Source of the DNA: Gammaproteobacteria bacterium | GTDB taxonomy: Bacteria > Pseudomonadota > Gammaproteobacteria > HK1 | Direction of reading: 5' to 3' | NCBI GenBank assembly: GCA_021773645.1 | Contig: JAJFJU010000020.1 | Span: 1 to 33,653 of the forward strand | DNA length: 33,653 bases | In this document: positions 19,401-30,552 of the stretch, piece by piece | Layout of the letters: the number at the start of each line of letters is the position of its first letter | Position numbering within the stretch: position 1 is the first letter of the stretch | Program-made: the position numbers and the translations under genes | The notes under the pieces: model-generated | Databases searched by the model: none | What the model was told of the DNA's origin: nothing | Seen by the model: only the letters and a program-made list of their open reading frames with translations

Positions 19401-19944
19401 GCACCGCAAACTCGCCGTGCTCCATTACCTGGCTGACGCAGCGATAACCCACCGCCTCCAGGCGCTGGCGAAAGGCGCTGATATCGAGATGCTCACCGAC
19501 GCCGAGCAGAAAGGCGTTGGCATCGAGATAACTGCGCGGGCACAGGCGCAGCATGGCAGTAGCCACGGTGACCAACAGGATGCCCCGTTTGAGCTGGGGC
19601 AGGCGGCAAAGGCTCGCTAGGCGCTCCGAGATGATGTCCTGATGGGGGGAAAACAGATCGTAGGGCAGAGTTTCCCAATCCGGAAAGTGCAATACAGGCA
19701 GCTTATCGGAGGTAAGAAAAAAACGGATCTCATCTTCTAGCAGCGTGGCGCTGCGGGAATCAGGGACCAGCAATATCAATGGCCCATCGGCATTTTCCGC
19801 CGCACGGGCCAGCGCCAATCCCCGGCTACTACCACGCAGGCCGGTCCAGGAGAGATGCCCTTTGGGGGAGGCGGGCAGAGTAGGGGAGAAAGCGCTGTGT
19901 ACGGTCATTTCGTTGTGGATAGATTCCGGGGTATTAATCTTCAT
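16444..19944 (-). CDS. mfd: transcription-repair coupling factor
   Basis: 1166 aa, full length. Mfd removes RNA polymerase stalled at DNA damage and recruits UvrA. The N-terminal UvrB-like part (about 1-350) includes DWETLPYDLFSPHQDIISERL. The RNA-polymerase-interacting domain lies near 490-550 (HINDPVVHESHGVGRYHGL, then RLYVPVQSLHLISRY). The RecG-like motor follows with Walker A GDVGFGKT near 646-653 and DEEH near 747-750, and the TRCF C-terminal domain is present. I chose ATG 19944; a TTG at 19953 after GAGGTG and a later ATG near 19908 are alternatives. The start lies inside the end of the deoR-type gene, so mfd, csiV and the regulator are probably one transcript. Confidence 0.96.
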   Translation of the reverse strand: MKINTPESIHNEMTVHSAFSPTLPASPKGHLSWTGLRGSSRGLALARAAENADGPLILLVPDSRSATLLEDEIRFFLTSDKLPVLHFPDWETLPYDLFSPHQDIISERLASLCRLPQLKRGILLVTVATAMLRLCPRSYLDANAFLLGVGEHLDISAFRQRLEAVGYRCVSQVMEHGEFAVRGSLIDLYPMGSEFPFRIDLFDDEVDSIRGFDPENQRSGDKLDNLQLLPAREFPLNEEGISDFRRRWRAAFSGDPMGHTVYREISTGVASAGIEYFLPLFFEHSESLFEYLPANSIVVGLEHSADATAVCWQELEERYEQRGHDKERPLLAPTGLALTVDEFEAVLSGFRRLDIRTTEANAEIEVQHFASRAPVRMPVDGRAEEPLALVHKFIDDFQGRILFVAESPGRREMLLESFLRARLPVQPTENWQQFAAADNTLGITVAPLEDGTVLEDPPLAIVTETQLFGDRAVQRRRRRRRERDAEGMVRNLGELHINDPVVHESHGVGRYHGLCTVEAGGSKGEFLSLEYAGGDRLYVPVQSLHLISRYTGCDPEHAPLHKLGSPQWARARKKAAERVCDVAAELLDIYAQRMARKGHRYQIETPLYEAFSNEFPFEETPDQQAAIDAVITDMEGERPMDRVACGDVGFGKTEVALRATFVAVQDSRQVAILVPTTLLAQQHYQNFCDRFADWPVRVELLSRFRSKKQQDAALEGLADGTVDIVIGTHKLLQKGINFKRLGLVVIDEEHRFGVRQKERLKALRAEVDVLTLTATPIPRTLNLALSGLRDLSLITTAPQHRLSIKTFVRPWDDALIREACLREIHRGGQIYFVHNRVEDIERIGEQLAALVPEASLRIGHGQMREKELEGVMMDFYHQRFNLLLCTTIVESGIDIPTANTIIINRADRFGLAQLHQLRGRVGRSHHRAYAFLLAPDRRALKADAVKRLDAIESMEDLGMGFTLASHDLEIRGAGELLGGEQSGQIQEIGYSLYTELMERAVAALKDGRHPELTQPLDHGPEVELGTPALIPEDYLPDVHARLVLYKRIAGANSAETLRDLQIEMIDRFGLLPDAARVLFRVTGLKLKSLPLGIQKMDLDNQGGYIQFADNAAIDPGKIVELIAREPEKYRFSGNNRLRLEIEQPEWEARAEMLEMLLDSLALREAA

Positions 19945-20707
19945 CGCTGGCAATCAGCACCTCAATGTTGGCTTCATCCAGGGCTCGTCGTACTTTCTGT
20001 GGCAGCCGTTCATCGCTAATGACCCGGTTTACTCGATCAAGGCTGGCAATGCGGTAGAGAGAGTGGTTGCTAAATTTGCTGGCATCCACGAGTACGGTAA
20101 CTTCATCGGCAGTCGCCAAAAAAGCGGCATTGATGGTGGCCTCGGCCTGGTTATGCATGGCGATGCCATCTGCCACAGAAATTCCACTGACCCCAAGAAA
20201 GGCATGGCTGACATGGAGTTCTTTTACGGCTGTCTCGGCCACGGGACCTACTGTCCCCAGTTTTTTCGGGTCCACGGTGCCACCGAGCAGCAGCACATCA
20301 ATGCCAGGATTACGGCTTAATTCCGCGGCCACGGTGAGTCCATTAGTGACCACCTGCAGATCCTTAAAACCCCTTAATTCCCGGGCCACCGCATACAGGC
20401 TGGTGCCGGCATTCATGAGGATGCAGTCACCCTCATGAATAAACTGTACGGCACAGGCGGCGATGGCTGATTTTTCCCGCGGATGTTCCCGCTCCCGGAC
20501 CTCATAGGGTGAGAGGTCAAAGTTAGGCGTATCCGTAGGAACGGCACCGCCATGGGTACGTTGCAGCAGGCCGAGCTTTTCCATGGCGCTCAGGTCACGA
20601 CGGATGGTAATCGGCGTTTTGTTGAAGCGTGCGGCGAGCGCGCTTACCGTAACTCCATGTGTTTTCTGGAGTAATTTCAGTATTTCTTGTTGACGGAGGT
20701 TCTGCAT
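19934..20707 (-). CDS. DeoR/GlpR-type transcriptional regulator
   Basis: 257 aa, standard size. The N-terminal winged helix-turn-helix has the DeoR signature: VTVSALAARFNKTPITIRRDLSAMEKLGLLQRTHGGAV, residues 19-56 (quoted in part; key residues R36-R37-D38-L39). The C-terminal sugar-phosphate-sensor fold shows NAGTSLYAVAREL (99-111), TNGLTVAAEL (121-130), LLGGTVD and LGVSGISVADGIAMHN. Members usually repress operons for sugars or polyols and respond to a phosphorylated intermediate. It is divergent from the E1/E2 operon with 125 bp between the starts, and the gap contains repeated ATGTTCG half-sites, so it is the likely local regulator. GGAAG precedes its ATG. Its 3' end overlaps mfd by 11 bp. 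Confidence 0.92.
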   Translation of the reverse strand: MQNLRQQEILKLLQKTHGVTVSALAARFNKTPITIRRDLSAMEKLGLLQRTHGGAVPTDTPNFDLSPYEVREREHPREKSAIAACAVQFIHEGDCILMNAGTSLYAVARELRGFKDLQVVTNGLTVAAELSRNPGIDVLLLGGTVDPKKLGTVGPVAETAVKELHVSHAFLGVSGISVADGIAMHNQAEATINAAFLATADEVTVLVDASKFSNHSLYRIASLDRVNRVISDERLPQKVRRALDEANIEVLIASDED

Positions 20708-20730
20708 CAGTTCTTCCGGAAAGCACAGGG

Positions 20731-20770
20731 ATGTTCGTTAATGTTCGGTAATGATTGATCATGTGTGATT
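20731..20770. promoter_or_regulatory. candidate DeoR-family operator, four 10-bp-phased repeats
   Basis: Units beginning with ATG occur at 20731, 20741, 20751 and 20761. The first two, ATGTTCGTTA and ATGTTCGGTA, match at nine of ten positions; the third and fourth match the first at six of ten. The ATGTTCG core equals the half-site of the GlpR operator known in enterobacteria (there arranged as an inverted repeat; here direct). A weak -35/-10 pair for the plus-strand operon, TTGATC (20755-20760) and TAGGGT (20778-20783) with 17 bp spacing, overlaps the last repeats, so binding could block it. Confidence 0.42.
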
Positions 20771-20832
20771 GTTTTGCTAGGGTACACCACATAACCCGTG
20801 TCATATCTCGTCGAAGCCGAGGATCCTAAGCC

Positions 20833-21828
20833 ATGCCTGCCCGGAAAAGAACTTCTTTAGCGCTGTCCAGCGAACAATTACTCCAGCTTTATGAGGATAT
20901 GTCCATGCTGCGGGCCTTTGATGAAAAGGTCAGCGAGCGTTGCATCCGTGGGGAGATCCCCGGGCTGATCCATCTCGGCGTGGGTGAGGAGGCGGTGGCG
21001 GTAGGGGTGAATGCCGCGTTGCAGCCTCAGGACAAAATGGTGAGCACCCATCGGGCCCATAGCCATTTTCTCGCTCGTGGTGCCGATCCCAAGGCCTTTA
21101 TGGCGGAACTCTACGGCAAGGCCACGGGTTGTTGTGGGGGCAAAGCGGGCTCCATGCATTTGGCAGATTTGGATATCGGTTTCCTTGCCGCCAACGGCGT
21201 GGTGGGCGGCGGTTTGCCATTGGCGGTTGGGGCTGCGCTGGGGCTGCGCATATTAAACGATGACGGGGTGACCCTGTGTTTCTTCGGTGATGGCGCCAAT
21301 AACAATGGTGCCTTTCATGAGTCCCTCAATCTCGCCGCAGTATTGGAACTGCCGGTGGTGTTTTTGTGTGAGAACAACGGTTATGGCATCTCCCAGAGTA
21401 TTCACAAGCAGCAGCGGGTAGCTAATGTCGCGGATCGGGCGCCTGGCTATGGTATCCCGGCGGAGATCATCGACGGTAATGATGTGTTGGAAGTCTACGA
21501 AACCGTGCGGCGGGCGGTGGACAAGGCTCGTGCCGGCGGCGGTCCAACGCTGATCGAGGCGAAAACCTACCGTACGATCGGCCACTATGTGGGCGATTCC
21601 GAGAACTATCGTTCCGCGGAGGAAGTGGCTGAGTGGCAGGCGAAGGATCCCATCGTGCGCTTTGAACAGGTCATGCGCCGCAAAAAATTATTGAATAAGG
21701 CCCTGAAAGAGGAGATTGCAGCACGCATCGCTGTTCTGGTGGAGGAGGCCACGGACTTTGCCTTGCATAGCCCGTTTCCTGATCCCGCGTCGGCCCTTAG
21801 CCATGTTTATGCCGAAGGAGTCGCGTGA
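20833..21828 (+). CDS. TPP-dependent 2-oxoacid/acetoin dehydrogenase E1 alpha subunit, first pair
   Basis: 331 aa. E1 alpha subunits bind TPP and, with E1 beta, decarboxylate a 2-oxoacid (or cleave acetoin) and pass the acyl group to lipoyl-E2. The TPP/Mg motif is GDGANNNGAFHESLNLAA with GDG at 152-154 and N181-N182 (CENNGYG). The GKAGSMHLADL and ANGVVGGGLPLAVGAAL blocks are like acetoin dehydrogenase AcoA and pyruvate dehydrogenase PdhA. His251 in TIGHYVGD is at the conserved active-site/phosphorylation-loop position. GAGGA 9 bp before the ATG supports this start. It is the first gene of the operon divergent from the DeoR-type regulator and overlaps its E1 beta partner by 1 bp. The substrate cannot be assigned from these motifs. 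Confidence 0.92.
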   Translation: MPARKRTSLALSSEQLLQLYEDMSMLRAFDEKVSERCIRGEIPGLIHLGVGEEAVAVGVNAALQPQDKMVSTHRAHSHFLARGADPKAFMAELYGKATGCCGGKAGSMHLADLDIGFLAANGVVGGGLPLAVGAALGLRILNDDGVTLCFFGDGANNNGAFHESLNLAAVLELPVVFLCENNGYGISQSIHKQQRVANVADRAPGYGIPAEIIDGNDVLEVYETVRRAVDKARAGGGPTLIEAKTYRTIGHYVGDSENYRSAEEVAEWQAKDPIVRFEQVMRRKKLLNKALKEEIAARIAVLVEEATDFALHSPFPDPASALSHVYAEGVA

Positions 21829-22802
21829 TGGCCAGGATGAGCTATGCCCAGGCCTTGAATGAGGCCCATCGCATTGCCATGCACGATGATCCACGGGTCT
21901 TCGTCCTCGGTGAGGATATCGGTGTCTACGGGGGGATCTATCGAGTCACCAAGGGCCTACAGGCGGAATTTGGTGAGCAGCGGGTGCTGGATACGCCCAT
22001 CTCCGAGATCGCCATTACCGGCGCAGCGGTGGGTGCAGCGCTGGTGGGGAGCCGCCCTATCCTCGAGATTGGCTTCGTGGATTTTGTTGGCACCTGCTGG
22101 GATCAGGTTTTCAATCAGGCGGCAAAATTCAGCTATATGACCGACGGGCGTGCCTCGGTGCCACTGGTGATTCGCATGGCCTGTGGCGCAGGCCTAGGTT
22201 ACGGCGTGCACCACTCCCAGAGTCTAGAGGCGTGGTTTACCCACGTGCCGGGCCTGAAGGTGGTGATGCCGGCGACACCGGCAGATGCCAAGGGCCTGTT
22301 ACTCGCCGCTATTGATGACCCCAATCCGGTGATCTTCCTGGAACACAAATTTCTCTATGAGGTGAAGGACGAGGTGCCCGATGGCCGTTATACCGTGCCG
22401 CTAGGCAAGGCTTGGATGGCTAGGGAGGGTGCTGATGTCACTATCGTCAGCTGGTCTGGCGCCGTCCCCTGGGCGCTGAAGGCGGCGGAGCAGGCGGCGG
22501 CAGAGGGTATCGAATGTGAGGTATTGGATCTACGCAGCCTGGTGCCGCTGGATGAGGATGCCATCGTGGCCTCGGTGGAGAAAACCGGCCGTCTGATCGT
22601 TTGCCATGAGGCCTGCACTACGGGTGGATTCGGGGCCGAGGTAATAGCCCGGGTGGTGACCCGCGCCTTTGATTTCCTCGATGCCGAGCCACTGCGGGTG
22701 GCCGCACCAGATATTCCGGTGCCCAACAGCCTGCCCTTGGAGGCGGTCTATCTGGGGACTCGTGAGCGTTTGCTGGAGGCCGTGCGCGGGATCGTGTCTT
22801 GA
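21828..22802 (+). CDS. TPP-dependent 2-oxoacid/acetoin dehydrogenase E1 beta subunit, first pair
   Basis: 324 aa. It starts at ATG 21828 with AAGGAG 7 bp upstream, overlapping the E1 alpha stop (TGATG). The N-terminal pyrimidine-binding domain has VLGEDIGVYGG and the catalytic-type Glu60 in DTPISE. The family's conserved His is present in the segment VHHSQS (H128-H129, the second aligning with the His of human PDH E1 beta). HVPGLKVVMPATPADAKGLL and the C-terminal domain (EVLDLRSLVPLD, then CHEACTTGGFGAEV) are standard. Everything needed for an active E1 heterotetramer with the preceding alpha subunit is visible. A 59-bp gap, the largest in the operon, separates it from the second E1 pair. Confidence 0.92.
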   Translation: MARMSYAQALNEAHRIAMHDDPRVFVLGEDIGVYGGIYRVTKGLQAEFGEQRVLDTPISEIAITGAAVGAALVGSRPILEIGFVDFVGTCWDQVFNQAAKFSYMTDGRASVPLVIRMACGAGLGYGVHHSQSLEAWFTHVPGLKVVMPATPADAKGLLLAAIDDPNPVIFLEHKFLYEVKDEVPDGRYTVPLGKAWMAREGADVTIVSWSGAVPWALKAAEQAAAEGIECEVLDLRSLVPLDEDAIVASVEKTGRLIVCHEACTTGGFGAEVIARVVTRAFDFLDAEPLRVAAPDIPVPNSLPLEAVYLGTRERLLEAVRGIVS

Positions 22803-22861
22803 TGTGAGAACACCTGTCGATCAGTAATTTTCTGTAGTTTGTGAATTAAAGGGGAAGAAAT

Positions 22862-23821
22862 ATGAGTTTGAGCCCACAGGATTTAAAACAGTTGTTCCGG
22901 CGGTTACTTCTCATTCGCCGTTTTGAGGAAGAGGCCTTTCGCCTCGCCGTGGCTGGGAAATTTTCCAATTACCATGGCGGCATGGGGCAAGAGGCGATAC
23001 CGGTCGGGGTGTGTTACGGCCTGAAGCCTACGGATAACACCATGATTACCCACCGTGGGCTCGGGGTGCTGCTGACTCGTGGGGTGCCTGTGGGGGAGAT
23101 CTTCGCCGGCCTTTATGCCAAGGAATCATGCCCCACCCGCGGCCGTCATCCGATCTTTCACATGGCGGCACCGGAATTGGGAATTCTTGCGGGTACCACC
23201 ATGGTGGGTTCGGTGATTCCGTTGGCAACGGGTGCCGCGCTGGCTGCGCGCATTCAGGGCAAGCCGGATGTCACCATCTCCTTCTTTGGGGATGGATCGG
23301 TGAACCGCGGAGATTTCCACGAGGGTGTCAACTTAGGAGCGGTGCGCAAGCTCCCCATCGTGTATTTTTGCGAGAACAATTTTTACGCTAAATCCATGCC
23401 GCTGGAGGCATCTACTGCCGGTGGCAGCATCATTGCTCGCGCCCAGGGTTACGGACTACCTAGTGAGCTGGTGGACGGTAATGATGTGGTGGCGGTATAT
23501 GAGGCCACCCAGCGTGCCGTAGCCCGTGCCCGCGCGGGAGAGGGGCCAACATTCATTGAGTGTCTGACCTATCGCTGGACCCCGCATTCCACCGCCGGCG
23601 ATCGGGAATTTTCCCGTACTGCAGAGGAGCTTGCGAGTTGGAAGGCCAAATGCCCGATCCTGCGTTTGCGCAAGCAACTCATAGAGGCAGGCCATGCCAG
23701 CGCAGAAGAACTGGATGCGGTGGATATAGATATTCAGCGTGAAGTGGCGGAGGGCGTGGAATTTGCCGAAGCCGCCCCCTACGCAGCGCCTGAAGTGGCC
23801 CTGGAAAACGTTTACGTTTGA
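22862..23821 (+). CDS. TPP-dependent dehydrogenase E1 alpha subunit, second divergent pair
   Basis: 319 aa. It is clearly an E1 alpha homologue: GDGSVNRGDFHEGVNLGAVRKLP with GDG at 143-145, then CENNFYAKSMP (N172-N173), VDGNDVVAVYEA, and His242 in the WTPHSTAGDRE loop. It differs from the first pair where the family has GKGGSMHxAD; here the sequence reads CPTRGRHPIFHMAAPELG. Its N-terminal block NYHGGMGQEAIPVGV is also its own version. So the two alpha subunits are not a recent duplication. An AAAGGGGAAG ribosome site precedes the ATG. Its beta partner follows after 10 bp. Different residues near the cofactor and substrate channel suggest a different 2-oxoacid, which is inference. Confidence 0.88.
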   Translation: MSLSPQDLKQLFRRLLLIRRFEEEAFRLAVAGKFSNYHGGMGQEAIPVGVCYGLKPTDNTMITHRGLGVLLTRGVPVGEIFAGLYAKESCPTRGRHPIFHMAAPELGILAGTTMVGSVIPLATGAALAARIQGKPDVTISFFGDGSVNRGDFHEGVNLGAVRKLPIVYFCENNFYAKSMPLEASTAGGSIIARAQGYGLPSELVDGNDVVAVYEATQRAVARARAGEGPTFIECLTYRWTPHSTAGDREFSRTAEELASWKAKCPILRLRKQLIEAGHASAEELDAVDIDIQREVAEGVEFAEAAPYAAPEVALENVYV

Positions 23822-23831
23822 GGTAATGAGA

Positions 23832-24806
23832 ATGCACAAGATTAGTTATCAGCAGGCCATTATCGAGGCCATGGTGGAGGAGATGCGCGGCGACGAAGCA
23901 GTTGTACTCATGGGCGAGGATGTGGGCACTTTCGGAGGTTTGACCGGAACTACAGTGGGCATCATCGAGGAATTTGGTGATAGCCGAGTGCTGGAGATGC
24001 CTATCTCCGAGTGCGGTTTTGTCGGGGCCTCGGTGGGAGCGGCATTGAAGGGTGTGCGGCCCATCGTGGAGATGGGGCTGGCTGACGTGTCGCTGGTGGC
24101 CATGGACCAATTAGTCAACAGCGCGGCGAAGATGAATTATTACCACGATGGGGTGGCTTCGGTTTCCGCAGTGTACCGGCTGTGGTCGGGTTTTCGCCCC
24201 GGCGGCGGTGCGCAGATGTCCCAGAGCAATGAGGCGATGTTTGCCCATGTGCCAGGCCTCAAGGTGGTGATGCCTGGTACCCCCCGCGATGTGAAGGGCC
24301 TGCTAAAGGCCGCTATCCGCGACGATAATCCGGTAATCGTTTTCGAGCCCAAGGGCTGCTATACGCTGCTTGGCGAGGTGCCGGATGATGAGGAGGTGAT
24401 TCCTCTGGGGCAGGCGGAGGTGAAGCGTGCCGGTGCCGATGTGAGTGTGATCGCCACGGGTGTCATGGTGGGCAAGGCGCTGGCCGTGGCCGAAAAACTG
24501 GCCGCAGAGGGCATTGATGTGGAGGTGGTGGATCCTCGTACCTTGCGTCCGTTGGATACCAAGACCCTAGTGGCCTCGGCGTGCAAGACGGGGCGGGTGG
24601 TCGTAGCACAGGAGGCCAGCCAATTCTGTGGCTACACTGCGGAGATTGCCGCGCTGCTGGCAGATGAGGCCTTTGATGCCCTCAAGGCACCGATCAAGCG
24701 GGTCGGCGGGGCCGAGACGCCAATGCCCCTAAGCCCGCGTATGGAGCCGCTGGTGGTGCCAGGCGAGGTGGCCATTGAAGCAGCCATTCGTAACGTTGTT
24801 GGCTGA
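23832..24806 (+). CDS. E1 beta subunit, second pair, with His-to-Met change at the conserved active-site position
   Basis: 324 aa from ATG 23832 (GAGG 8 bp upstream; an ATG at 23826 is only 2 bp from the same site). Fold and core motifs match E1 beta: LMGEDVGTFGG, Glu60 in EMPISE, HVPGLKVVMPGTPRDVKGLLKAAI, and the C-terminal EVVDPRTLRPLD and AQEASQFCGYTAEIA. The striking point is AQMSQS at 127-132. Pyruvate dehydrogenase E1 beta has AQHSQ here and the first pair has VHHSQS, so the conserved His is Met129. The codon is ATG at 24214-24216, not one base from CAT or CAC, so a single sequencing error does not explain it. Its chemistry may differ from normal E1. Confidence 0.88.
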   Translation: MHKISYQQAIIEAMVEEMRGDEAVVLMGEDVGTFGGLTGTTVGIIEEFGDSRVLEMPISECGFVGASVGAALKGVRPIVEMGLADVSLVAMDQLVNSAAKMNYYHDGVASVSAVYRLWSGFRPGGGAQMSQSNEAMFAHVPGLKVVMPGTPRDVKGLLKAAIRDDNPVIVFEPKGCYTLLGEVPDDEEVIPLGQAEVKRAGADVSVIATGVMVGKALAVAEKLAAEGIDVEVVDPRTLRPLDTKTLVASACKTGRVVVAQEASQFCGYTAEIAALLADEAFDALKAPIKRVGGAETPMPLSPRMEPLVVPGEVAIEAAIRNVVG

Positions 24807-25812
24807 AACAGCAGTGGCTAATCCACAGCACATGCTGATCGGAGTTACTGACCACTTTGAGGCGCCCTTCGAAATCGAGGCCAGGGCCCTGCCTGGTGCG
24901 GAATTTGTCACCCTCAGTGGGGGTGATGAAGATAGCTATGACGAGGAACTGCTGGCGCGTATAGATGCCCTGCTGGTCTTCCATGCCCATCTTGGCGCCA
25001 AGACCCTTGCCAGCTTGCCGCGTTGCCGCATTGTCGTTCGCTATGGCGTCGGGGTGGACAACCTGGACCTCTTAGCCTTTGCTCGCTTTGGCGTACCGGT
25101 GTGCAACACCCCGGATTACGGCGTGGAGGAAATTGCGCTGACCACGGTGGCGCATATCCTCAATTTATGGCGGCGTATCTCGCAGTACGATATCGCCTGC
25201 CGTGAACATCGTGTGGGTTGGGTTGAACACATCCTGCGGCCTATCCCACGACTCTCGGAGGCAACGCTTGGGATTGTCGGCGTGGGGCGCATGGGTGCGG
25301 CGGTGGTTCGCTACATGAGTGCCTTTGGATGCCGCGTTCTCGGCTATGACAAGCACCAACCCAGGGGACACGAGCAGACTGTGGGTTACACGCGGGTAGA
25401 TAGTCTTGGTGCACTACTGGAGCAGGCCGATATTGTGAGCCTGCATTGCGTGCTCACGGAAGATACCCGGGGCATGGTGGATGAGGCTTTTCTGGAGACC
25501 ATGAAGCCTGGCGCGTTGCTGGTGAATACCGCCCGTGGTGGCTTATTCAAGAATCTCGATGTACTTGAAGCCGCCTTACGCAGTGGTCGGCTTGGCGGTC
25601 TGGGGACCGATGTATTGCCGGAGGAGCCTCCTGGGGATCATCCGCTGATCCATGCTTGGCGGGAGCATGCGCCGTGGTTGGGTGGTCGCCTCATGATCAG
25701 TCCGCATACGGCCTATTATTCGGAGTCGGCGCTGCACGATATGCGCTATCAGGCGGCAGAGACCATCCACTTATATCTGCAGCAAGGCATCTTGCGTAAC
25801 CACATCGTTTAG
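24775..25812 (+). CDS. D-2-hydroxyacid dehydrogenase, CtBP/phosphoglycerate dehydrogenase-like
   Basis: About 345 aa. It is an NAD-dependent oxidoreductase interconverting a D-2-hydroxyacid and a 2-oxoacid. The Rossmann motif is GVGRMG (169-174) in LGIVGVGRMGAAVVRYMSA. The catalytic triad is visible as Arg254 (NTARGG), Glu283/284 (DVLPEEP) and His311 (SPHTAYYS). The VVRYGVGVDNLDL and NTPDYGVEEIALTTVAHIL blocks point to the C-terminal-binding-protein-like branch. The start is uncertain: TTG 24775 follows GAGG by 6 bp but overlaps the E1 beta gene by 32 bp. GTG 24814 and ATG 24832 are alternatives; MLIGVTDHFE from the last resembles the usual family start. Its 2-oxoacid product could feed one of the E1 enzymes. 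Confidence 0.87.
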   Translation: MKQPFVTLLAETAVANPQHMLIGVTDHFEAPFEIEARALPGAEFVTLSGGDEDSYDEELLARIDALLVFHAHLGAKTLASLPRCRIVVRYGVGVDNLDLLAFARFGVPVCNTPDYGVEEIALTTVAHILNLWRRISQYDIACREHRVGWVEHILRPIPRLSEATLGIVGVGRMGAAVVRYMSAFGCRVLGYDKHQPRGHEQTVGYTRVDSLGALLEQADIVSLHCVLTEDTRGMVDEAFLETMKPGALLVNTARGGLFKNLDVLEAALRSGRLGGLGTDVLPEEPPGDHPLIHAWREHAPWLGGRLMISPHTAYYSESALHDMRYQAAETIHLYLQQGILRNHIV

Positions 25813-25822
25813 GAGAGTAAGC

Positions 25823-26773
25823 GTGGAAAAAATCGCTATCGTCGGTGCCGGCTTCATTGGTCGCAGCTGGTCCATCCTGTTCGCCCGGGCGGGCTACGAC
25901 GTGAGCCTCTATGATCGGGATGCCGAGGTACTCGGCCGTGCTTTGGCCATTATCGATACGAGTATCGATGAACTGGTTTCGCTGGGATTGCTGGATGATG
26001 CCGCGGCGGTGCGGGAGCGCATCTCCATCAGTGCTGATTTGGTCGAGGCCCTGTCCGGTGCGGTGCATATACAAGAGGCCGTGAGCGAGCGTCTGGAGAT
26101 CAAGCAGGCGGTCTTTGCCGAGCTCGATCAGTTCGCGGATGCGGATGCGGTGATCGCCAGCTCTTCTTCCACCATTCCGACCTCAGAGTTGAGCGAGTCC
26201 CTCGCGGGGCGGGCACGTTGTCTGCTCGCCCATCCGCTGAATCCGCCGCATCTGGTGCCGGTGGTGGAGGTGGTGCCCACCCCCTGGACGGCCCCCGAGG
26301 TAGTGGAACGTACCCGCGTGCTGCTCAGTGCCATCGGTCAGATGCCGGTGGTGATGAAAAAAGAGGTGCCGGGTTTCATCGTCAATCGACTGCAGATTGC
26401 GGTGCTTAACGAGGCCTTTCGCCTGATTGACGATGACTGTATCGACCCGGTGGAGCTGGACAAGGCCATGACCCATGGCCTGGGCCTGCGCTGGTCCGTG
26501 GTGGGACCTTTCGACACCATCGACCTGAATGCTGCACGGGGGGTTAGTCACTACGTGGATATCTTCGGTGAGATGTTTTACCAAGCCATGAAGGACCGTG
26601 GCGAACCCCGGCGTTGGAGTGAGTCGTCCATCATGGCCGTGGAAGAGTCCATGCGTGCCCGCCTGCCAGTGGCGGAGATTCCCTATCGACAGGCCTGGCG
26701 TGACCGGAAATTGTCGGAACTCGCGGTGCTACGTGCCCGTAGTGAACAAGCGGAGACCCGTGATGGCGACTGA
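25823..26773 (+). CDS. 3-hydroxyacyl-CoA dehydrogenase family, lambda-crystallin/L-gulonate 3-dehydrogenase-like
   Basis: 316 aa. The N-terminal Rossmann domain has GAGFIG (8-13) in IAIVGAGFIGRSWSILFA, very like lambda-crystallin (CRYL1). ASSSST (112-117), His137 in AHPLNPP with Glu149, and Asn188 in VNRLQ give the family's Ser-His-Glu-Asn set. The AVHIQEAVSERLEIKQAVFAELD segment and the C-terminal QWRDR-like WRDRKLSEL tail also match CRYL1 rather than fatty-acid-oxidation FadB types. CRYL1 oxidises L-gulonate to 3-dehydro-L-gulonate; bacterial relatives act on various 3-hydroxyacids or their CoA esters. It starts at GTG 25823 after GGAGAG, 10 bp after the previous stop, and overlaps the E2 gene by 11 bp. 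Confidence 0.88.
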   Translation: MEKIAIVGAGFIGRSWSILFARAGYDVSLYDRDAEVLGRALAIIDTSIDELVSLGLLDDAAAVRERISISADLVEALSGAVHIQEAVSERLEIKQAVFAELDQFADADAVIASSSSTIPTSELSESLAGRARCLLAHPLNPPHLVPVVEVVPTPWTAPEVVERTRVLLSAIGQMPVVMKKEVPGFIVNRLQIAVLNEAFRLIDDDCIDPVELDKAMTHGLGLRWSVVGPFDTIDLNAARGVSHYVDIFGEMFYQAMKDRGEPRRWSESSIMAVEESMRARLPVAEIPYRQAWRDRKLSELAVLRARSEQAETRDGD

Positions 26774-27977
26774 GATCAAATTGCCCGCGCTGTCACCGTC
26801 CATGACCGACGGTACGGTGGCCCACTGGCACAAGCAGGCCGGCGATAGCGTGGTGATCGGAGAACCGCTGGTGGATATTGAAACCGCCAAGACGGTGCTG
26901 GAAATGGAGTCTCCCGTTAGCGGCACTATTGAGGCCTTGCTGGTCACCGTGGGTGATGAGGTGAATGTCGGCACGGGCATTGTGCGATTGGCGGGTGCTG
27001 GCGATGAGGCCAGGCCGGCAATCGATACAGAAGGTGCGGCTCCTGCGAAAATGGCGGAAAAGACGGTGGCTACTGAGAGTCGGCCGCGGTCTGCTGATAT
27101 CAAGGCCCAGAATGAACAACGGCTACGTATCAGCCCGCGAGCCCGCAAGCTGTTGCGTGCTGAGGGTATGGCTGTTGACGGCATTGTGGGGAGCGGTCCG
27201 GGCGGGCGCATCGTGGAACGCGATGTACAGCAGCAGCTTGCCAAGTCCGCCAGCAAGTCCGTGGTCCCGGTGGAGGTTGAACTGCCCGGCTCAACCCTTG
27301 TGCCGCATACCCGTACGCGGCGTTATATTGCCGACCGCCTGCAGCAAGCCAAACAGCACATCCCCCATTTCTATCTCTATATTGACTGTGAGGTGGATGA
27401 TCTGGTGGCATTTCGTGCTCGCCTCAATAGCGAACCTGGAAGGTTGCCAGAACAGCGTTTGTCCCTTAATGATTTTGTTATCCGTGCCCTGGCTCTAGCG
27501 TTGCGGGATATGCCGGAGCTTAACGGGCTGTGGGAGGAGGCGGGGATTCGGCATTTTGAGTGCGTCGACCTTGCGGTTGCCGTAGCGACTCCGGATGGTT
27601 TGTTAACGCCGATACTGAAAAACGTGGCTCGCAAAGGCTTGATGGAGATCAGTCGGGAGATGCGTGAGCTGGCCGCACGAGCACGGGCGGGAGAGCTCCA
27701 GCCCGAAGAATACGCCGGTGGTGGATTCACCCTGTCCAATCTGGGTATGTACGGTGTTCGCAGCTTCTCACCGATTATCAATCCACCCCAGATTGGTATT
27801 CTCGCGGTGGGAGCGATGGCGCGTCAGCCGGTGGTTCGGGGAGATGCGCTGGAAATCGCTTCGGTGATGAGCGTCACGCTCTCCGTGGATCACCGCGCAG
27901 TGGACGGGGCTGAAGCGGCGCGTTTTCTTGCCACCATCCGCCGCTACCTTGAAGAGCCTCGTGCGATGTTGCTGTAG
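26763..27977 (+). CDS. dihydrolipoamide acyltransferase, E2 of a 2-oxoacid dehydrogenase complex
   Basis: 404 aa. It receives the acyl group from E1 on a swinging lipoyl arm and transfers it to CoA. There is one lipoyl domain (residues 1-77) with the lipoylated Lys43 in ETAKTVLE. An Ala/Thr/Glu-rich linker leads to a peripheral subunit-binding domain at about 123-157 (RISPRARKLLRAEGMAVDGI, then GPGGRIVERDV). The catalytic domain has SNLGMYGVRSFSPIINPPQ and the active-site motif DHRAVDG with His377 and Asp381. The ATG at 26763 overlaps the previous gene by 11 bp; the open frame upstream of it is not E2-like. It is the only E2 for two E1 pairs, and there is no E3 gene, so lipoamide dehydrogenase must be supplied from elsewhere. 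Confidence 0.94.
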   Translation: MATEIKLPALSPSMTDGTVAHWHKQAGDSVVIGEPLVDIETAKTVLEMESPVSGTIEALLVTVGDEVNVGTGIVRLAGAGDEARPAIDTEGAAPAKMAEKTVATESRPRSADIKAQNEQRLRISPRARKLLRAEGMAVDGIVGSGPGGRIVERDVQQQLAKSASKSVVPVEVELPGSTLVPHTRTRRYIADRLQQAKQHIPHFYLYIDCEVDDLVAFRARLNSEPGRLPEQRLSLNDFVIRALALALRDMPELNGLWEEAGIRHFECVDLAVAVATPDGLLTPILKNVARKGLMEISREMRELAARARAGELQPEEYAGGGFTLSNLGMYGVRSFSPIINPPQIGILAVGAMARQPVVRGDALEIASVMSVTLSVDHRAVDGAEAARFLATIRRYLEEPRAMLL

Positions 27978-27983
27978 TCCTGG

Positions 27984-28775
27984 CTAACGCGAAGTATCCA
28001 GATTCCATTTCCGCAGGCGTAAACCTTCACCCGTGATGGCCAGGGAGGCTTGATAATCGGTATCTGGCCACAGGTCGTGAAGCGACCAGCGCTCTGATGC
28101 TCCGGGCTCCAGCGTGCTAGCAATGAGATGCGGTGGCACATCTGGCTCCACCGATACCTGGAAATTTCCAAGCCCTAGAGCAATACCTCCCCCCATGGCC
28201 TTGAGATAAGCCTCCTTGCGACACCAACAGGTGTAAAAGGCCTGTTCCTGCTTGGGTGTGGGCAGCGCCCGGATGGCGGCATATTCGGCAGGGTGGAAAA
28301 AGCGCCGGGCGATACCTTGCCAGGGGCGGTTTGGGCGGAGCTGCTCCACATCGATACCCAACGGAAGATCGAGGGCCACGGCGATGAGCAGCAAGCCGCC
28401 CGAATGGGACAGGTTGAACTCCACTTGATGACCGTGCCAGAGCTGGGTGAGGGTGGGTTTGCCTTTTTCCCCGGTGAGCAGTTCGAGCGTTTGCGGCGGG
28501 GTATCCAATAAGGAGCCCAGCAGTCGGCGCAGCATGCCCCGGCTATAAATAGTCTCGTGTCGTTTGTGGATGGAGCCGATCCTGGCCAATCGCTGTAGTT
28601 CATCGGCGGACAAGAGGGCGCTTAAGGCATCCAGTTGTGCTGGATCTGTCGATATCGTCGCGCAGCCGATCTCTATGCAGCTGGGCTTGAGGTGGAGCTG
28701 TTCCCATGGGAAGGCTGACCACGGTCCAGGCTGGGCGTCGTGCTGTGAACTGAATGCTTGCTTGGAAGGCGTCAC
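27984..28775 (-). CDS. 4'-phosphopantetheinyl transferase, Sfp type
   Basis: 263 aa, as usual for the Sfp/Gsp class. It moves the phosphopantetheine arm of CoA to a serine of carrier proteins. The motifs are in order: FNLSHSGG (120-127), LGIDVEQL with the Mg-binding Asp142 and Glu144, and WCRKEAYLKAMGGG with Trp184, Lys187, Glu188 and Lys192. The N-terminal half is the pseudo-symmetric repeat. It starts at GTG 28775 with no strong ribosome site. It is convergent with the E2 gene (6 bp between the stops) and divergent from ggt. No carrier protein, fatty-acid, polyketide or nonribosomal peptide synthase is nearby, so its target is elsewhere in the genome. Confidence 0.92.
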   Translation of the reverse strand: MTPSKQAFSSQHDAQPGPWSAFPWEQLHLKPSCIEIGCATISTDPAQLDALSALLSADELQRLARIGSIHKRHETIYSRGMLRRLLGSLLDTPPQTLELLTGEKGKPTLTQLWHGHQVEFNLSHSGGLLLIAVALDLPLGIDVEQLRPNRPWQGIARRFFHPAEYAAIRALPTPKQEQAFYTCWCRKEAYLKAMGGGIALGLGNFQVSVEPDVPPHLIASTLEPGASERWSLHDLWPDTDYQASLAITGEGLRLRKWNLDTSR

Positions 28776-28821
28776 GGAGATGCTAGTCTAGCGCTCACAC
28801 TATAGAAGGGAAGAGCTGGTG

Positions 28822-30552
28822 ATGATGGTTAAAGAGTTTTCTGAAGCCCCACAGCATCTCTTTGCGGCTGCCTTGACACTGTTACTACTCGTTTCCAGTG
28901 TCGGGGTGTTGGCGGAACCTGCGGGGAGGGAAGCGCCACCACGGGTGGTAGCGCGCCACGGCATGGTGGTGAGTGGTGAGGCCCTGGCAACCCGTGTGGG
29001 GGTGGATATTCTCCGGCGCGGTGGTAATGCCATTGATGCGGCCGTAGCCGTGGGCTTCGCGCTGGCGGTGACCTTGCCGGATGCAGGCAATCTCGGGGGC
29101 GGAGGATTTATGCTGCTGCATCTCGCTGACAGCGGCGAGAGCATTGCCCTGGATTATCGGGAAGCGGCTCCGAAGGCGGCCAGTGAGCATATGTTTGTGG
29201 ATAAAAGTGGTGCGGTGGATGCCAAGCGAGCACGCTTTAGCCATTTATCGGCGGGGGTGCCGGGTACCGTGGCCGGATTGAGTTATGCCCTCGAGCACTA
29301 TGGCAGCCTGTCGCTTCAAGAGGTGATAGCTCCAGCCATCCGTTTGGCCGAGGCCGGTTATCCGGTGAGTGGCGCGCTGGCGGAGCTGCTCCAGAAGGAT
29401 GCCGCACATCTGGGACGCTCAGCGGCGAGCCGTGAGATCTTCTTGCGTGATGTTGGTTCACCTTATAAGGCGGGGGAGCGGCTGGTGCAGACGGATCTGG
29501 CCTGGTCGCTACGGCAAATCGCGACGCAGGGCATGCAGGCCTTCTATGGTGGGGCAGTGGGGCGCCGCCTCGTTGCGGATATGGCACGTCACGGTGGCCT
29601 GATGACTCTTAATGACTTAAAGCAATATCGGCCGTTGCCACGTACGCCGGTACAGGGGCATTACCGTGGCCACGAGATCATCGCTATGCCGCCGCCGAGC
29701 TCTGGCGGTGTTCATCTGATCCAGATGCTCAATATCCTAGAGGGCTATCCCATAGCCCGTCTGGGGCATAACACCGCGGACACCATCCACCTTATGGCCG
29801 AGGCGATGAAACGTGCGTATGCCGATCGCAGCCTTTACTTGGGGGACCCGGACTATTTTGCCGTGCCCGTGAAGGGGCTGATATCCAGACCGTATGCCGA
29901 TAAATTGCGCCAGAGCATAGACCCTGAGCGCGTGACCCCGGTGGAGGGGCCGGGAAACCCGATTCCCTATGAGAGCGCTGAGACCACCCATTTCACCGTG
30001 GTGGACCGGGCGGGAAATATTGTGAGCAATACCTATACCCTCAACTTTCGTTTTGGCAGCGGCATTGTGGCGGCGGGTACGGGAATATTGCTCAATAACG
30101 AGATGGATGATTTCTCTGCCCGGGCGGGGGTCGCCAATGCCTATGGATTGTTGGGCGGTCGCGCCAATGCCATTGCCCCGGGAAAACGCCCCCTGAGCTC
30201 CATGACTCCGGTGATCGTTATGCGAGCGGGCAAGCCGGTGCTCGCCACGGGTAGCCCGGGAGGCAGTCGTATCATTAGCACGGTGCTGCAGATACTGATG
30301 AATGTCATCGACCACGGCATGAATATCGTCGCTGCCACGGCGGCACCTCGGGTGCATCATCAATGGCGTCCCGACGAGTTGCGGGTGGAAACGGGTCTTA
30401 ATCCCGCTGCGACGGCGAATTTAAAAAAAATGGGACATCATTTAATGCAGACCATACCCATGGGGGTCGCGAATTCGGTGATGTGGATTGAAGAGGGATT
30501 GCAGGGCAGTGCGGACTCACGCCGCCCCGATGGTTTAGCTGAGGGTTATTAA
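28822..30552 (+). CDS. ggt: gamma-glutamyltransferase, periplasmic, self-processing
   Basis: 576 aa with a signal peptide ending near VGVLA. GGT hydrolyses or transfers the gamma-glutamyl group of glutathione. The large-subunit motif GGNAIDAAVAVGFALAVT (68-84), LGGGGFMLLH and Arg113 in DYREAAP (glutamate carboxylate binding) are present. Self-cleavage would occur before Thr388 in ETTHFTVVD, the N-terminal nucleophile of the small subunit, matching E. coli Thr391. RPLSSMTP and GSPGGSRI complete the active site. GGGAAGAG precedes the in-frame cluster GTG-ATG-ATG; ATG 28822 has the best spacing. It has no obvious partner genes; periplasmic glutathione recycling is the default role. Confidence 0.95.
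   Translation: MMVKEFSEAPQHLFAAALTLLLLVSSVGVLAEPAGREAPPRVVARHGMVVSGEALATRVGVDILRRGGNAIDAAVAVGFALAVTLPDAGNLGGGGFMLLHLADSGESIALDYREAAPKAASEHMFVDKSGAVDAKRARFSHLSAGVPGTVAGLSYALEHYGSLSLQEVIAPAIRLAEAGYPVSGALAELLQKDAAHLGRSAASREIFLRDVGSPYKAGERLVQTDLAWSLRQIATQGMQAFYGGAVGRRLVADMARHGGLMTLNDLKQYRPLPRTPVQGHYRGHEIIAMPPPSSGGVHLIQMLNILEGYPIARLGHNTADTIHLMAEAMKRAYADRSLYLGDPDYFAVPVKGLISRPYADKLRQSIDPERVTPVEGPGNPIPYESAETTHFTVVDRAGNIVSNTYTLNFRFGSGIVAAGTGILLNNEMDDFSARAGVANAYGLLGGRANAIAPGKRPLSSMTPVIVMRAGKPVLATGSPGGSRIISTVLQILMNVIDHGMNIVAATAAPRVHHQWRPDELRVETGLNPAATANLKKMGHHLMQTIPMGVANSVMWIEEGLQGSADSRRPDGLAEGY

Follow-up and report, generated by a model that had tools for sequence, protein, structure and literature searches.

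Phased direct repeats in the gap between two divergent genes raise the question of whether they form an operator, and if so, for which regulator and which target. The stretch of DNA analyzed here (the window, 33,653 nucleotides of contig JAJFJU010000020.1 from a gammaproteobacterium) contains four ATG-headed 10-mers in exact 10-bp phase, starting at positions 20731, 20741, 20751, and 20761, and this array lies inside a 125-bp gap between a DeoR-family regulator gene and a divergently transcribed operon for 2-oxoacid dehydrogenase components. The features of the locus are:

19934..20707, minus strand: DeoR-family regulator (HTH_DeoR and DeoRC domains), proposed to bind the repeats; from domain matches, the sole DeoRC gene found in the genome
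20731..20740, plus strand: putative operator unit 1, ATGTTCGTTA; ATGTTCNNTA in all three genomes of the genus
20741..20750, plus strand: putative operator unit 2, ATGTTCGGTA; ATGTTCNNTA in all three genomes, varying at unit positions 7-8 like unit 1
20751..20760, plus strand: possible weaker unit 3, ATGATTGATC; 9 of 10 columns invariant across the genus genomes (three), holds the candidate -35 of the operon
20761..20770, plus strand: possible weaker unit 4, ATGTGTGATT; 9 of 10 columns invariant across the genus genomes (three)
20755..20783, plus strand: candidate operon promoter, TTGATC, 17-bp spacer, TGC-TAGGGT (extended -10); read by eye from three genomes
20833..22802, plus strand: 2-oxoacid dehydrogenase E1 alpha and beta, first pair; from the ORF list and domain/family matches
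22862..24806, plus strand: E1 alpha and beta again, second pair; listed as overlapping ORFs, with tentative starts
24775..26773, plus strand: 2-hydroxyacid dehydrogenase and 3-hydroxyacyl-CoA-dehydrogenase-like protein (PRK06129)
26598..27977, plus strand: 2-oxoacid dehydrogenase E2 (lipoyl, E3-binding, and acyltransferase domains)

The window sequence bears out the preliminary description of this DNA as to the positions and the 10-bp period of the ATG repeats, and as to units 1 and 2, which differ at a single base and both contain ATGTTCG. Its picture of a four-unit repeat stands for the ATG heads, which are common to all four units and in phase, but the units are unequal, since TTCG is confined to units 1 and 2 and the same place is occupied by ATTG in unit 3 and by TGTG in unit 4. 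The exact pattern of four phased ATGs occurs once in the window, compared with 0.01 occurrences expected, and when the 125-bp gap was shuffled, any trimer in four in-phase copies was obtained in 5 of 20,000 shuffles at a period of 10, in 8 at periods of 10-11 and in 33 at periods of 7-12. Tandem Repeats Finder detects just the first 2.3 copies of the array (score 39), and two of its 12 rows for the window, both within listed ORFs, outscore it (62 and 44), hence the likeness of the copies is unimpressive by itself and the case for the array is made by its conservation and its neighborhood. An inverted-repeat operator was rejected, as no inverted repeat with a length of at least 8 was found in 20690-20840, and the array does not have the inverted half-site repeat of an Escherichia coli-type palindromic GlpR operator.

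The gene on the left of the gap encodes a DeoR-family protein, as judged by its Pfam matches to HTH_DeoR (57.6 bits, cut-off 21) and DeoRC (159.5 bits, cut-off 31.8), and by curated cut-offs it is neither GlpR (110.7 bits against the equivalog PRK10906, cut-off 331) nor AgaR (194.6 bits against the equivalog NF040755, cut-off 260). Its start codon (20705-20707) lies 23 bp from unit 1, so that the start of the regulator message must be close to or within the array. A family search with DeoRC (PF00455) in the three genus genomes (about 2.5 Mb each) returned one match per genome, namely the gene beside the array. No orthologous regulator was found outside the genus, matches at E <= 1e-25 in 369 genomes of the class being at most 39% identical; the closest are those of the loci L019 and L020 (39 and 36% identical). 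A contig scan gave two congeneric MAGs and one 29% match, and a phmmer search against PDB chains returned nothing at E <= 0.001.

Persistence of the repeats in orthologous gaps had been named in the preliminary description as a check, and in the three genus genomes compared here, the window's own and two others (G000, G001, and G002), the repeats are kept. The array lies in the same place of the gap in both other genomes (3/3 in all), and a pattern of three copies of AATGNNNNNT followed by NATG, with up to two mismatches allowed, matches once per genome in 3/3 (reversed control, 0), each genome having one regulator and one array. Units 1 and 2 read ATGTTCNNTA in all three genomes, with changes confined to unit positions 7 and 8, while unit 3 varies solely at position 10 and unit 4 solely at position 8. 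For the array alone, 34 of 40 columns are identical versus 60 of 85 in the remaining gap (one-sided p = 0.06); if the comparison is extended by the following 13 bp to take in the candidate -10, the values are 46 of 53 versus 48 of 72 (Fisher one-sided p = 0.008). Because the array alone is just marginally better conserved than its surroundings, the argument rests on the phase-locked pattern together with the neighborhood. At up to three mismatches, ATGTTCNNTAATGTTCNNTA was found at 17, 8, and 11 places in G000, G001, and G002, respectively, compared with 6, 3, and 12 for the reversed control. The two best matches besides the array (2 mismatches, one in G000 and one in G001) are similar to each other and look coding, and no second target of the regulator is evident among the ATGTTCNNTAATGTTCNNTA places, judged at the level of the matches.

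On the operon side of the gap, the candidate -35 (20755-20760; TTGATC, or TTGATA in relatives) falls inside unit 3 and the candidate -10 lies at 20778-20783, and TGCTAGGGT of this candidate promoter is invariant in the three genus genomes. A consensus scan of 20600-20900 for sigma-70 promoters and terminators called 0 promoters and 0 terminators, hence the promoter is our own reading. The genes that would be transcribed from it are, in order, E1alpha, E1beta, E1alpha, E1beta, 2-hydroxyacid dehydrogenase, 3-hydroxyacyl-CoA-dehydrogenase-like protein and E2. An orthologous operon was not found outside the genus, a PRK06129-type protein at E <= 1e-60 being present in 3 of 55 genomes, all of them from the genus. 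Within the operon (20833-27977) the E1alpha-E1beta pair is doubled and E2 is single, and no E3 was seen among the ten proteins that were domain-searched.

The TTCG core of units 1 and 2 was followed beyond the genus in the last 150 bp upstream of regulators from 35 regions, which include the near-duplicates L007/L008, L010/L011, and L021/L023 and from which three class-genome matches without a locus were left out; start codons were guessed. In these regions TTCG occurs 75 times, compared with 36.6 in shuffles that preserve base composition only and 51.2 in control windows from the same loci. No other four-letter word forms as many direct pairs at spacings of 10, 11, and 20-22 bp (13 pairs in 9/35 regions for TTCG), the runner-up CGCC being nearly as frequent (9 pairs in 8 regions), and the control windows contain on average 1.5 TTCG pairs in 1.4 regions, the observed values being reached in 0 of 500 draws. 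A preference of the pairs for whole helical turns is not exclusive, since they also exceed shuffles at 5-9 bp (8 versus 0.66) and at 12-19 bp (5 versus 1.0). The loci L022 and L025 have TGTTCG repeats at 10 bp that closely resemble those of the window; upstream of L019 and L020, TTCG pairs at the tested spacings (10, 11, and 20-22 bp) are absent. Direct TTCG pairs at 20-22 bp, that is two helical turns, as though a unit were skipped, lie upstream of L025, L026, L027, L029, L033, L036, and L041.

The pattern TGTTCGNTNNTGTTCGNT, which was designed after the window, L022 and L025 were known, occurs at 7 places in 369 class genomes and at 18 places in 398 phylum genomes (23 distinct places). Since its reversed control occurs at 15 and 23 places in the same two draws, TGTTCGNTNNTGTTCGNT is not enriched genome-wide and is enriched in placement only. 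A DeoR-family gene, called with an HMM built from 38 regulators, is present within the locus at 6 of the 23 places and at none of the 23 of the reversed control, whose loci stem from the phylum draw with 8 from one genome, these 8 and L114 spanning about 1.6-1.9 kb and not 3 kb; the test loci L084 and L087 are short too, and L099 and L100 are one array. At the other 17 of the 23 places, no DeoR-family gene lies within the stretch examined. When the window and the two loci behind the design are set aside, 3 of 20 places have a DeoR-family gene (L079, L088, and L091), and in each of them the array sits between a GlpR-like gene and glpD, encoding glycerol-3-phosphate dehydrogenase. A similar neighborhood is seen at the design loci, with L022/L080 beside glpD and L025/L078 beside glpK and a UgpC-like gene. 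With 342.3 bits, the L091 regulator exceeds the GlpR cut-off of 331, whereas those of L022, L025, L079, and L088 have GlpR as their best family, yet at 249 to 270 bits remain under it. The window and these five loci (L079, L088, L091, L080, and L078) have in common TGTTCGNTNNTGTTCGNT, with its direct 10-bp phasing, next to a gene of the DeoR family, but they differ in the regulator, which scores 249 to 342 bits against PRK10906 at the five loci (with 1/5 passing 331) and 110.7 bits in the window, and in the neighboring genes, as the five adjoin glycerol-3-phosphate genes, unlike the array of the window. The distant GlpR-like loci carry two or three TTCG units. Direct TGTTCG repeats at 10 bp are also found in L099/L100 (around 1491-1530), L085, and L087, with no DeoR-family gene in the stretch (1.8 kb for L087), and L099 has three perfect TGTTCG units followed by an imperfect fourth.

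The TTCG core is shared between the array and the GlpR operators of E. coli, which are each palindromic, whereas the array consists of direct repeats without an inverted repeat. Direct repeats with a period of 10-11 bp are, however, the operator motifs of the DeoR-family regulator RhaR, described as two repeats for four RhaR groups, and in a gel shift the RhaR of Chloroflexus aurantiacus bound a 38-bp tandem of four TCGAAA sites, binding being abolished by L-rhamnulose (PMC3870299, in the sections drawn on here). The direct arrangement, which the preliminary description had singled out as notable, is thus a known form in the DeoR family. By the features used in the same sections, the array likewise presents imperfect direct repeats of 10-11 bp period upstream of a regulator and its presumed target, conserved in the orthologous upstream regions of 3/3 genus genomes. 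The C. aurantiacus system resembles the window in having a DeoR-family gene with a four-site tandem upstream of it; it differs in its consensus (TCGAAA, compared with ATGTTCNNTA) and its genes (rhamnose genes, compared with a 2-oxoacid dehydrogenase operon), and RhaR binding and its effector, L-rhamnulose, were assayed, whereas the array is known from sequence alone (PMC3870299, same sections). Several sites in one control region, to which the array can be likened, are also described for E. coli glpFK, with four GlpR operators (O1-O4), one of them overlapping the -10, acting in repression (PMC4117983, in the part available). The part of PMC8579813 available reports a putative tandem-repeat site of the DeoR-family regulator AxgR, kept in the eight Caldicellulosiruptor genomes that possess the locus; sites of LacI- and DeoR-family regulators that overlap promoters or sit in 5' UTRs are read there as repression. 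No repeat geometry is given in the corresponding parts of PMC3750489 or PMC7567609.

In our judgment, the array is very probably the operator of the adjacent divergent DeoR-family regulator. The overall interpretation of the preliminary description was largely right: an operator of the DeoR family, phased and with a TTCG core like that of GlpR sites, fits the conservation in the genus and the 10-bp direct TGTTCG repeats beside GlpR-like genes elsewhere, and it is the remark on the arrangement that falls away. What we infer for the regulator, namely its binding, repression, autoregulation, stoichiometry and inducer, may be pictured as follows. The regulator would act as an oligomer in which each winged-helix domain reads a single 10-bp unit, all on one face of the helix, with units 1 and 2 as strong sites and units 3 and 4 as probably weaker ones. 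Once bound, the regulator would cover both the operon's candidate -35 and the DNA immediately preceding its own start codon, and a protein in this position would be expected to repress the operon from E1alpha to E2 and probably the regulator gene itself, with relief when the DeoRC domain binds a small metabolite. Although real, the site is an ordinary one, in that its layout is already known for DeoR-family repressors.

A narrower version of this reading, which takes up a share of the probability assigned to it and which we regard as a serious contender short of an even chance, limits the operator to units 1 and 2 (20731-20750); the ATGs of units 3 and 4 would then be coincidental and their conservation a consequence of the -35 and spacer of the promoter. 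Units 3 and 4 both lack the TTCG core, their conservation could stem from the promoter, the candidate -35 lies within unit 3, and the distant GlpR-like loci manage with two or three TTCG units. However, the ATGs of units 3 and 4 are in phase in 3/3 genomes, the single change in unit 4 is at position 8, as in units 1 and 2, and promoter spacer bases are usually under little constraint. Precedents exist on both sides, as the four RhaR groups have motifs described as pairs of repeats, whereas for one protein of the DeoR family a tandem of four sites is documented (PMC3870299, sections as above).

It is improbable that a different DNA-binding protein, such as an activator or a nucleoid protein, uses the array instead of the adjacent regulator. 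The data presented here do not single out one binding protein, and the array lies partly upstream of the -35, where activators bind too, but the over-representation of TTCG direct repeats upstream of DeoR-family genes, the occurrence of the array once per genome beside the sole DeoRC-domain gene, and the lack of inverted repeats of at least 8 in 20690-20840 all speak for the regulator. That the array arose by chance, or as a side effect of start codons or of a leader peptide, is a very remote explanation, for although ATG-headed units might resemble starts and copies 3 and 4 are poor, chance was rejected on the count of one versus 0.01 expected and on just 8 of 20,000 gap shuffles (period 10-11), the array is kept in 3/3 genus genomes, and a leader peptide was rejected on the length of the frames from the four ATGs, which are 6, 5, 5, and 22 codons in the window and G001 (5-22) and 6, 5, 9, and 32 codons in G002 (5-32).

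Returning to the array as the operator of the adjacent regulator, we tentatively propose, as a possibility that is on balance doubtful, that a member of the DeoR family belonging to neither GlpR nor AgaR either retained a direct-repeat TGTTCG operator of GlpR type or arrived at one by convergence, and that in a single small genus of Gammaproteobacteria it governs a doubled 2-oxoacid dehydrogenase operon. In this genus it would be the sole DeoR-family regulator, with the array as its only strong site. If this is true, the regulator would serve one operon and sense a pathway of 2-hydroxy or 2-oxo acids, not a sugar phosphate. At a more practical level, a likely operator and target can be assigned to an unstudied regulator, with a 40-bp probe for the bench. 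The sites of GlpR-like and DeoR-family regulators are usually pictured as palindromes, and the loci compared here suggest that direct 10-bp-phased TTCG units recur beside DeoR-family genes, GlpR-like ones included, which is a modest and checkable point. Directly downstream of the operon lie a 4'-phosphopantetheinyl transferase gene (27984-28775, minus strand) and a gamma-glutamyltranspeptidase gene (28819-30552).
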